A stretch of DNA of 64,000 nt, taken from Pirellulales bacterium. Its GTDB lineage: Bacteria; Planctomycetota; Planctomycetia; Pirellulales; PALSA-1355. The DNA lies in contig JALHMI010000003.1 in NCBI GenBank assembly GCA_022844125.1, positions 310,001 to 374,000 of the forward strand, written 5' to 3'. Below are positions 29,274 through 31,797 of this stretch, piece by piece (position 1 is the stretch's first letter; the number at the start of each line of letters is the position of its first letter). The notes beneath the pieces were generated by a model that did not search any database, was not told the DNA's origin, and was given only the letters and a program-made list of their open reading frames with translations. The translations under genes were made by a program, and so were the position numbers.

Positions 29274-30062
29274 ATGCAGCCTTCGCGGTGGCCCCAGGCT
29301 CGTGCGTTATTCGTTCGCTCGCCCAAACAGGCCCGGCGGCTCGGCGGGTTGCTGCTGAACCTGGTCTATCCTGGCGCCTGTGTCTGTTGCCAGACGGCGC
29401 TCGAAGAGTACCAGGGCGTTTCGCTTTGCGAGCCGTGTCGCGGAGAACTGCTCCGCCCGCGCGTCGCATGCTCGCGTTGCGGCTCGCTGCTCGCGCCAGG
29501 CATGTCCGGTGATCCCTGTCCGCGCTGCCGCGAGTTGCGGCTCAAGTTCACGCGCGCCGTTTGCCTCGGCAGCTACGACGGCCTGTTGCGAACCGCGGTG
29601 CTGCGAATGAAGCACCCCGCCGATCGACCGCTGGCCGTCGCCCTGGGCGCTCACCTCGCCACTTGCGTCGCCACCGAATTTCCGCCGTCTGAAATCGACG
29701 TCGTGATGCCGGTGCCGATGCACTGGTCGCGCCGCGTGTGGCGCGGAGCCAACAGTCCCGAAGTGCTGGCCGCCGCGATCGCCGAGCGTCTGCGCGTGCC
29801 CGCGACGTCGCAACTCCTCGTCCGTCGCCGTCGCACGATCCCGCAGGCCACGCTTTCGCCCGGCCGCCGCCGCGCGAATGTCCGCGGCGCGTTTTTCGTC
29901 CACCCTCATCGCGATCTCGCGGGCGCGCGCGTGCTGCTCGTCGACGACATCCTCACCACGGGCGCCACGCTCAACGAAGCCGCCAAGACGCTCCGCAAAG
30001 CCGGCTCAAGCGACGTGTGCGTTGCCGTACTGGCCCGGGCCGAAGGGTTGCAGTCGAAGTAG
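29274..30062 (+). CDS. comF: ComF family phosphoribosyltransferase-like protein
   Basis: 262 residues. N-terminal zinc-ribbon-like cysteines ('CVCCQTAL...CEPCRGELL...CSRCGSLL...CPRCREL', about 38-88), then a type I phosphoribosyltransferase fold with 'VVMPVPMHWSRRVWRGANSP' and the PRPP motif 'VLLVDDILTTGATLNEA' (about 222-238). ComF proteins are needed for natural competence, probably by helping single-stranded DNA uptake at the cytoplasmic face, though they lack a proven enzymatic activity. It is divergent from the aminotransferase. A RAYT element lies immediately downstream. Confidence 0.88.
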   Translation: MQPSRWPQARALFVRSPKQARRLGGLLLNLVYPGACVCCQTALEEYQGVSLCEPCRGELLRPRVACSRCGSLLAPGMSGDPCPRCRELRLKFTRAVCLGSYDGLLRTAVLRMKHPADRPLAVALGAHLATCVATEFPPSEIDVVMPVPMHWSRRVWRGANSPEVLAAAIAERLRVPATSQLLVRRRRTIPQATLSPGRRRANVRGAFFVHPHRDLAGARVLLVDDILTTGATLNEAAKTLRKAGSSDVCVAVLARAEGLQSK

Positions 30063-30110
30063 AACTGTCAGCTAATCCCGACTTTACCAGTCGGCCCGCC
30101 GTCTCTTTAA

Positions 30111-30172
30111 CAACCCGACGCGTAAGTCGCGTAAGCGAGGCTCCTACTTCACAACCCGACGCGTAAGCGAGG
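30111..30172 (+). repeat. Left CAACCCGACGCGTAAGCGAG palindromic repeats of the RAYT element
   Basis: Two direct copies: 30111-30140, carrying an internal short duplication (CGTAAGTCG), and 30148-30172, intact. The intact copy matches the right-end copy at 30741-30765 over 25 bases in inverted orientation. Confidence 0.9.
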
Positions 30173-30225
30173 TAACATTCGTGATGGTGCTGCCCTCGCG
30201 TGCGCCCTCCGTCTAGGAACTCCAC

Positions 30226-30699
30226 GTGGATGACCCAATTGCCTTCTTTCTGACTTGGCCGACCTATGGCACTTGGCTGCCCGGAGATTCTCGAGGTTGG
30301 GTTGACTACCATCAGGGGTGGCAACTTCCCGATCCAATACTGTTGCTTGAGTCACAGTCGAGGATGTCAGAGGGTGCGTGCACCCTTTCCACCATCGAGC
30401 GGCGCCTCGTCGAAGTGCAAGCGGGTGAAACATGCGCCCATCGTGGTTGGACGCTACACGCGATCAATTGCCGATCGAATCACTTGCATCTCGTGGTAAG
30501 TGCGTTAGATACGAACCCAAGGAAGATTCGCATCGACATCAAGGCATGGTGCACGCGCCGATTGAAGGCTCACAACCCAGCCCGAGAGCACTGGTGGGCG
30601 GAGCGAGGGAGTCAGCGATACATCTTCTCCGTGGACCGGTTGGCAACCGTCATCGAGTATGTGACTACCGCACAAGACCGAAAGAACCGAGACGTGTAG
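30226..30699 (+). CDS. REP-associated tyrosine transposase (RAYT, Y1_Tnp/IS200-like HUH)
   Basis: 157 residues, GTG start at 30226 with AGGA 7 bases upstream. N-terminal 'AFFLTWPTYGTWLPGD' is a common opening of planctomycete IS200-like proteins. The HUH motif is His86-Leu-His88 in 'NHLHLVV', and the likely nucleophile is Tyr145 in 'VIEYVTTAQDRK'. Between them 'IRIDIKAWCTRRLKA' and 'HWWAERGSQRYIF' match the Y1_Tnp core. All catalytic residues are present, so the enzyme may be active. RAYTs cut single-stranded palindromic repeats and are thought to spread REP elements rather than themselves. Confidence 0.8.
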   Translation: MDDPIAFFLTWPTYGTWLPGDSRGWVDYHQGWQLPDPILLLESQSRMSEGACTLSTIERRLVEVQAGETCAHRGWTLHAINCRSNHLHLVVSALDTNPRKIRIDIKAWCTRRLKAHNPAREHWWAERGSQRYIFSVDRLATVIEYVTTAQDRKNRDV

Positions 30700-30740
30700 G
30701 TGTTGGATGGCTCGGTCGCGGTGTTCAAACGCTGAATTCG

Positions 30741-30765
30741 CCTCGCTTACGCGTCGGGTTGTGAA
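30741..30765 (-). repeat. Right inverted repeat of the RAYT element
   Basis: Exact 25-base reverse complement of 30148-30172, about 41 bases after the RAYT stop codon. Confidence 0.9.
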
Positions 30766-30870
30766 ACTCACGGCGACCATGCCGATGCGGGCACCCTTGC
30801 CTCCGCCCCGCGAATCCGCAGAATACGGGCTACCACCGATCCGCCTACGCAACAATCGACGTTCACCCGC

Positions 30871-31797
30871 ATGAGTATCCGCCTCCGTCTTGGAACCCGC
30901 GCCAGCGCCCTGGCCCGTTGGCAGGCCGATTGGGTGGCCGCGCGCCTGGCAGAGCAGGGCGTCGAAGTCGAACTCGTGCTCATCGCCACCCAGGGAGACG
31001 CTGAACAGCGCGACCCGATCGGCAATCTCGGCAGCCCCGGCGTCTTCACCAAGGAGATCCAACGGGCTCTGCTCGAAAATCGCGTCGACCTGGCCGTCCA
31101 CAGCCTCAAGGATCTCCCCACCGAACCGATCAAAGGTCTCTGCCTCGCCGCCGTGCCACCGCGCGAAACCACGGCCGACGTCCTCATCAGCCATGACGGC
31201 CGCCGCTTTGACGGTCTTCCGCCGGGCGCAACCATCGGCACCGGCAGTCTCCGTCGCCGGGCGCAGCTCCTCCACCTGCGGCCCGACCTCAAAATGGCGG
31301 GCATCCGCGGCAACGTCGACACCCGGCTCGAAAAGCTCGCCCGCGGCGACTTCGACGCCATCGTCCTGGCCGAAGCCGGCCTCAAGCGATTGGGGCTCAG
31401 CAGCCGGATCACCGAGATTCTCCCCGGCGACAAGGTCCTGCCGGCCGTGGGGCAGGGGGCCCTCGGGATCGAAACTCGTGCTGATGACGATCGCACGCGA
31501 ACGGCACTCGCCGCGCTCAACGATCCAGTCACCCACGCCGCGGTCCTCGCCGAGCGCACGCTGCTCGCCGACCTGGCTGGCGGCTGCCTGGCGCCGATCG
31601 CGGCCTGGGCGCGACCAACCGATGCCCAAACGCTCGCCCTCGACGCCGCGGTCCTTTCGCAAGACGGGCGCCAGCGGCTCTTCTTGTCCCAGCAAGGACC
31701 GCTGACCAGTGCCCAGACGCTCGGCAGCACCGTGGCCGCCGCGCTGCTCGCGCAAGGCGCTGCCGATCTGATCGCCGCGGCGCGCGTCACCGGCTGA
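30871..31797 (+). CDS. hemC: Hydroxymethylbilane synthase (porphobilinogen deaminase) HemC
   Basis: 308 residues, usual length. It polymerises four porphobilinogens into hydroxymethylbilane in tetrapyrrole (heme) biosynthesis. Seen: N-terminal 'RLGTRASALARWQADWV', 'GSPGVFTKEIQRALL', 'VDLAVHSLKDLPTE' (about 72-85), 'IGTGSLRRRAQLLHLRPDL' with the arginines that hold the chain, and Cys239 in 'GGCLAPIA', the attachment site of the dipyrromethane cofactor. ATG at 30871. No other heme genes are adjacent; the upstream neighbour is a RAYT element. Confidence 0.95.
   Translation: MSIRLRLGTRASALARWQADWVAARLAEQGVEVELVLIATQGDAEQRDPIGNLGSPGVFTKEIQRALLENRVDLAVHSLKDLPTEPIKGLCLAAVPPRETTADVLISHDGRRFDGLPPGATIGTGSLRRRAQLLHLRPDLKMAGIRGNVDTRLEKLARGDFDAIVLAEAGLKRLGLSSRITEILPGDKVLPAVGQGALGIETRADDDRTRTALAALNDPVTHAAVLAERTLLADLAGGCLAPIAAWARPTDAQTLALDAAVLSQDGRQRLFLSQQGPLTSAQTLGSTVAAALLAQGAADLIAAARVTG

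Follow-up and report, generated by a model that had tools for sequence, protein, structure and literature searches.

The locus between positions 30107 and 30765 of the analysed stretch of DNA (the window, 64,000 nucleotides in full) is very probably a class 3 REPtron, made up of a gene for a single-stranded DNA transposase of the HUH type (IS200/IS605 superfamily) and copies of the repeat that the enzyme recognizes. Computation showed an enzyme fold with its catalytic residues, genome-wide dispersal of the repeat, inverted dimers with an intergenic bias, tight enzyme-repeat pairing among relatives, covariation between residue 125 and the foot of the repeat, and empty junctions. Class 3 has received little study, though members are on record from Planctomycetes (available text of PMC6006769). 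The view of an earlier note that such transposases are barely studied in this phylum is fair as to the small amount of work, but they are not unstudied, being treated in the available parts of PMC6006769 and PMC3733652.

As the earlier note had described, the transposase ORF has two repeats on its left and one inverted repeat on its right (Table 1), and this layout was confirmed by the sequence and by a repeat search of the window. The inner left and right copies were complementary at 25/25 nucleotides (100%), and the outer left copy proved to be a third copy, broken by a 9-base duplication (CGCGTAAGT/CGCGTAAGC). With the 20-base core at ≤3 mismatches, only two clean copies were found in the window, where dinucleotide shuffles expect 0.01. 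The outermost inverted match (30097-30126 / 30746-30775) runs about 10 bases past the repeat, with CGCCGT in common, and this extension may be either a remnant of older element sequence or a coincidence. The transposase gene had a GC content of 0.56 and a GC3 of 0.63, against 0.80 in the neighbour genes, and its ORF was missed by a simple codon-usage gene caller.

Table 1. Features of the transposase locus and its two neighbouring genes, in window positions
Feature	Position	Strand	Basis or remark
Outer left repeat copy, type A	30107..30141 (approximate)	+	9-base duplication inside; repeat families D1, D5, D12; inverted pairs I1, I7
Inner left repeat copy, type A, TTCACAACCCGACGCGTAAGCGAGG	30148..30172	+	Exact 25-base inverted match with right copy
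Right repeat copy, type A, inverted	30741..30765	-	Repeat search of window and core scan
Class 3 TnpA_Y1 (HUH, Y1) transposase, 157 aa; H86, H88, W124-A125, Y145, Q150	30226..30699	+	Pfam PF01797, alignments A1 and A2, AlphaFold model
comF-like phosphoribosyltransferase gene, left neighbour, outside element	29274..30062	+	PF00156 and PF18912
hemC porphobilinogen deaminase gene, right neighbour, outside element	30871..31797	+	PF01379, E 1.3e-80

The ORF was intact, with N85-H86-L87-H88 and Y145 all present. Across the 20 homologues of alignment A1, H88, K106, W124, Y145, and Q150 were invariant. A larger set of 166 homologue rows, each covering at least 110 profile columns and chosen by profile match, and hence biased to intact genes, retained H88 in all 166, H86 in 164, and H86, H88, and Y145 together in 160. 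Degeneration of the catalytic residues in relatives, which the earlier note had named as a sign against its reading, was thus not seen; stop codons were present in 7/80 relatives. The protein passed the Pfam PF01797 cut-off by half a bit. A profile search against the PDB returned IS200/IS605 transposases (E 4e-4), and a search of solved structures with the single sequence as query gave nothing relevant. The AlphaFold model (pLDDT 94) matched IS200/IS605 TnpA at Z 13-14 and the E. coli RAYT structure 4er8 at Z 10.6. Residues and predicted fold together mark the protein as an IS200/IS605-type HUH enzyme with a complete catalytic site.

Several features bear on its class. The NCBIfam RAYT model (REP_Tyr_transpos) gave no match at E≤1, and the NCBIfam IS200 model was the sole match for the protein, under its cut-off. 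The Tyr motif is EYVTTAQ at 144-150, of the form Y-x4-Q, and the class 2 RAYT motif Y..NP was without a match. A profile comparison with E. coli RayT (hhalign) aligned 44 columns at low probability and did not reach the Trp region; the W-to-Y spacing is 21 residues in both proteins (W94 and Y115 in RayT, W124 and Y145 here). The GTAG/GTGG tag found 5' of the hairpin in class 2 is absent, the type A foot being ACAA or ATAA before CCC. In the available text of PMC6006769, class 3 TnpA_Y1 proteins number 24 and are recorded from Planctomycetes, with NHVH, W[TA], and Y----Q motifs, a CnGA foot, and a high copy number; their behaviour was left open, and further experimental analyses were called for. 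The corresponding features here are NHLH at 85-88, W124-A125 (in 83 loci the Trp is followed mostly by A or T), Y145 with Q150, CCGA immediately 5' of a CGC-GTAA-GCG hairpin, and a multicopy repeat. The protein is thus not a classical class 2 RAYT, and its motifs agree with the class 3 that Quentin et al. described in 2018 (PMC6006769). The "catalytic-site-complete RAYT" of the earlier note is therefore right in its HLH motif and Tyr145 but not if class 2 is meant.

The repeat was widespread in the window's own genome (G000; 6.44 Mb in 27 contigs), rather than confined to one locus. At ≤2 mismatches, the 20-base core had 76 copies against 0 for a reversed-pattern control, and a looser 18-base form had 135 against 9. 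Exact core matches numbered only three, two at the window locus and one on contig 25, and most genomic copies carried a GTGA loop, versus GTAA at the window locus. The intergenic association that the earlier note had proposed to examine was borne out, with 5/84 copies inside called genes compared with 77% of random positions, the genes being those of a simple codon-usage caller. By type of gap, 14 copies were convergent, 15 divergent, and 49 tandem, with no convergent excess.

Two repeat types were distinguished: type A begins ACAACCCG and type B begins TTAGCCCG, and the copies at the window locus are type A. Among the matches listed, 63 copies matched ARCCCGAMGCGYNAGCGAGG without mismatch; 50 had an AA foot and T loop (type A), 7 AG and C (type B), 6 AG and T, and 0 AA and C (Fisher p 3e-6). 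This unbiased repeat-type survey comprised 107 copies, and the type counts cover the 100 of these that were listed. The genome contains a second clear homologue, a paralogue at G000 C4:95182-95655 that is 42% identical and bracketed by type B copies. Since the window gene is bracketed by type A, two enzymes accompany two repeat types. Ten PF01797 (Y1 transposase) matches were found in G000, only two of which were clear class 3 homologues.

Neighbouring copies were mostly arranged as inverted dimers. For copies <120 bp apart (42 pairs at 41 loci), the orientation was +- in 31, ++ in 5, -- in 4, and -+ in 2; this survey took in 40 fetched G000 loci and the window, and its type B count was low because the T-loop motif was searched. 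Seven dimers with exactly 28-nt spacers had spacer sequence in common (mean identity 0.58, against a null maximum of 0.35), and the dimer therefore appears to be the unit that spread, as in REPINs, in which two inverted copies are dispersed as one. At G000 C15:173418-173833 (L091), a tandem array of three ~181 bp units was observed, with repeat copies in each.

The dimer is also the stronger structure. A single copy forms a weak hairpin (-3.2 kcal/mol, z -1.1), while the inverted dimer is a strong palindrome (z -9.4). In 108 distinct 21-mers, with orientation uncertain for a few diverged repeats, basal positions 3-19 paired in 89 and 4-18 in 79, against shuffled means of 59 and 57 (0/1000 shuffles reached the observed counts), with C-G, G-C, and A-T pairs all represented. 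Pair 2-20 was weaker (8/1000 shuffles reached it), and the inner positions were mostly G.A and A.G. This basal covariation supports a structure in which the single strand folds into a hairpin containing an internal mismatch. The earlier note had seen in the locus the minimal architecture of a repeat-spreading transposase with its cognate palindromes; a repeat-associated tyrosine transposase and a cognate repeat dispersed genome-wide are indeed present, but the palindrome is the dimer, the single copy being weak.

Homologues occurred patchily, in 38/97 genomes at E≤1e-3 (the window's own included). A GTDB scan gave 336 relatives, of which 80 were kept, nearly all labelled Planctomycetota. A flanking inverted repeat pair (score ≥14) was found at 64/80 homologue loci, a count that takes in three with one short flank (L119, L134, and L163), compared with 0/240 dinucleotide-shuffled flank pairs. 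Commonly a whole dimer lay on each side of the gene; in Neorhodopirellula pilleata (L118), long same-direction repeat arrays flanked it on both sides. Protein identity was correlated with repeat similarity (Mantel rho 0.55; 0/2000 permutations) over 96 loci, obtained by reducing 131 to 119 with ≥110 columns and non-identical sequences, and these to the 96 with an inverted score ≥14. In 39/43 comparisons, which were ordered and non-independent, the repeat was nearer to that of the closest homologue outside the genome than to that of the same-genome paralogue. The repeat sequence thus tracks the transposase and not the host genome, and the data suggest that each enzyme has its own matching repeat, partly read by one residue. 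A similar enzyme-repeat match is described for class 2 in the available text of PMC8266576.

The candidate for that residue is position 125, directly after Trp124. Among 63 exploratory loci (those of 119 with at least 2 copies of a generic motif), it tracked the base immediately 5' of the CCC stem. The rule was fixed from these loci and applied to a held-out set of 84 new loci, of which 83 were taken, 47 remained after 95% redundancy removal, and 24 had at least 2 copies. The foot was predicted correctly in 22/24, one 1:1 tie (L263) being scored as A; both misses (L273 and L325) had Ala125 with a G foot. With the exploratory and held-out loci pooled (83), all 29 with an A foot had Ala125, and the 54 with a G foot had Thr (40), Ser (7), Ala (4), Gly (2), or Asn (1), so that 50/54 were non-Ala. 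On a tree built without the tested columns and leaving out L145 and L049 (odd labels) and L125 and L133 (gap at 125), the foot changed 7 times by parsimony, and a Pagel test, with approximate optimisation, gave LR 41 and p 2e-8. With stratification by loop type, Ala125 ranked top of 1238 column-residue tests (z 6.7), a value reached in 0/1000 permutations (largest 6.4). The loop base similarly followed residue 65, with purity 1.00 in the 63 exploratory loci and 24/24 held-out loci correct, but this rule was set aside as weak evidence because only ~2 changes on the tree underlie it, and it could be no more than a clade marker.

We tentatively propose, as a matter close to evenly balanced, that class 3 transposases read the last foot base with the one residue after Trp124, Ala permitting A and Thr, Ser, Asn, or Gly requiring G. 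The place would be that of Q95 in E. coli RayT, which is reported to contact the GTAG guide and is among the residues concerned with GTAG in the available text of PMC6006769 and PMC8266576. The putative equivalence of 124/125 with 94/95 (W94-Q95) is based on an identical distance to the Tyr (21 residues) and on the column for W in a table in the accessible part of PMC6006769. The base that lies beyond the basal CCC stem may be the functional foot. In the available text of the literature on RAYT/REPIN, planctomycete REP, REPtron, and class 3, neither experiments on class 3 nor a rule of the Ala125 type were found, and a search for Rhodopirellula with REP found nothing.

The insertion site was examined in 12 chosen genomes. 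All 12 had hemC, comF adjoined it at 6/12 loci, and no transposase match was found at hemC in any of the 12. The comF-hemC gap was ~110-140 bp and without repeats in two same-family genomes and ~30 bp in a third genome of the order, versus 808 bp here. The search for empty sites in relatives that the earlier note had advised was thus successful, and gain of the element here is the simpler reading as against loss elsewhere. The same note's suggestion of an active or recently active system goes further than the evidence: the gene is intact and the junctions are empty, but most copies have GTGA loops and similar repeats occur in genomes with no detectable enzyme.

The distribution of repeats and enzyme over the 97 genomes was associated but not identical. 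A strong homologue (E≤1e-20) occurred with at least 10 type A/B repeats in 14 and with fewer than 10 in 8, repeats without a strong homologue in 13, and neither in 62 (Fisher p 6e-5). Several of the 8 low-repeat genomes, out of 22 with a strong homologue, have homologues that carry other repeat types. Conversely, 11/59 genomes with no homologue at E≤1e-3 still had at least 10 type A/B repeats, so either the repeats persist longer or spread further than the enzyme, or draft assemblies have hidden the gene. Service by another Y1 transposase was rejected, as none of the other Y1 loci examined (L206-L255, from ten genomes, most of them repeat-bearing without a class 3 enzyme) was bracketed by type A/B copies; at L222 and L248 a repeat pair lay nearby without bracketing the gene. 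Five genomes (G004, G007, G025, G051, and G018) had from 100 to >1000 type A/B copies, and an enzyme of matching repeat type was not found in them.

A sister clade of the window transposase was observed inside other genes. In three genomes of three families, a class 3 transposase domain of ~160 aa lies in frame within valyl-tRNA synthetase (L388:2882-6916 in G762, L389:2417-6265 in G614, and L390:2838-6650 in G765), at one common site and with the repeats apparently translated as linkers. The ORFs scored above the NCBIfam valS cut-off, with one valS match each in G762 and G765 and two in G614; no report of a transposase domain within valyl-tRNA synthetase was found in the literature text. The same subclade is also in frame in L354:4202-8440 (G036), L355:2299-7140 (G147), and L357:2162-4804 (G368, at a contig end), where the hosts are phage-defence methyltransferase genes, for a type IIG restriction-methyltransferase, a BREX PglX, and a type ISP enzyme. 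The L354 insertion falls immediately before the NPPW motif. Among 58 matches listed, 4 were in frames >1200 aa.

In the mechanism that we propose, the repeat would fold on single-stranded DNA, for example on the lagging strand, into a small, imperfectly paired hairpin that has a GNNA loop, a G.A-rich internal mismatch, and only a short stem at its base. The enzyme would bind this hairpin, the residue after Trp124 would read the base immediately 5' of that stem, and Tyr145 would cut and rejoin there. Two inverted repeats would be the unit spread between genes, presumably by movement in trans, and the gene itself sits between two such inverted ends at the comF-hemC junction. The system may still be active at present.

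Other explanations fared less well. The overall architecture is like that of a classical class 2 RAYT/REP pair with a GTAG-tagged REP, as in E. coli, and 4er8 is among the fold matches, with an equal W-to-Y spacing; this identity is nevertheless very improbable, and was rejected on the Tyr motif (Y-x4-Q instead of Y..NP) and the missing NCBIfam match, to which the low-probability alignment with E. coli RayT may be added. Their intergenic position would also suit repeats that are host elements unrelated to the enzyme, such as terminators or protein-binding sites. We regard this as barely credible: no Rfam match was found near the locus, repeat type follows transposase type across genomes, and terminators were rejected on the lack of convergent excess and because one weak terminator-like site was found, about as many as expected.

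A small IS200-like insertion sequence, with the repeats as its ends, a gene that moves with both, and dimers as deletion derivatives, would account for the window gene and its G000 paralogue each being enclosed by a single inverted pair, as if a dimer had been stretched, as well as for the comF-hemC junction that is empty in relatives and for the lower GC and GC3 of the gene. Yet the genome has one gene copy per repeat type against >100 repeats, and in many relatives whole dimers flank the gene on both sides, which makes this reading unlikely. Alternatively, the enzyme may have been domesticated for a host function, such as processing or limiting repeat hairpins, and move nothing, the repeats being fossils. 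Orphan repeats in gene-less genomes, the low gene copy number, and catalytic residues intact over wide divergence would agree with this, but the patchy occurrence, the empty junctions, the several paralogues with different repeats per genome, and the stop codons in some relatives speak against it, and we consider it a minority possibility. The class 3 REPtron with its dispersed dimers remains the preferred explanation.

With it, REPIN-like spread would reach a phylum distant from the Proteobacteria. Natural enzyme-repeat pairs are many, with at least two different pairs in several cells, and together with a one-residue/one-base covariation they make recognition directly testable. If the foot rule is true, a single substitution could direct an enzyme to a new population of repeats, and such retargeting would explain the many parallel enzyme-repeat pairs in Planctomycetota and the leftover orphan repeat families.

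Among known systems, TIRtrons (available text of PMC3733652) similarly combine a gene for a Y1 transposase with repeats that flank it in inverted orientation and are dispersed as well, but they have long TIRs with GGGGWSAS, whereas the repeats here are short, hairpin-type, and in dimers. The IS200/IS605 TnpA proteins (IS608, ISDra2) give the best fold matches and have the glutamine of the Y motif in common, and their recognition unit is likewise a hairpin plus foot (PMC6006769, as far as available); unlike them, the window element is not a multicopy IS, and its repeats far outnumber the genes. Class 2 RAYT/REPIN systems (E. coli RayT; Pseudomonas REPINs, available text of PMC3116915) are alike in having an HUH Y1 enzyme flanked by its repeat and intergenic inverted doublets, and differ in the Tyr motif, in the GTAG tag that type A lacks, and in the weak single-copy hairpin found here. 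The closest likeness in kind is to class 3 TnpA_Y1, with its planctomycete hosts, HUH, W[TA], and Y-x4-Q motifs, flanking atypical structures with a CnGA foot, and many genomic copies. Beyond the 24 proteins in the available text of PMC6006769, the 166 homologue rows assembled here add inverted-dimer units, enzyme-repeat pairing, and covariation between the post-Trp residue and the foot base.
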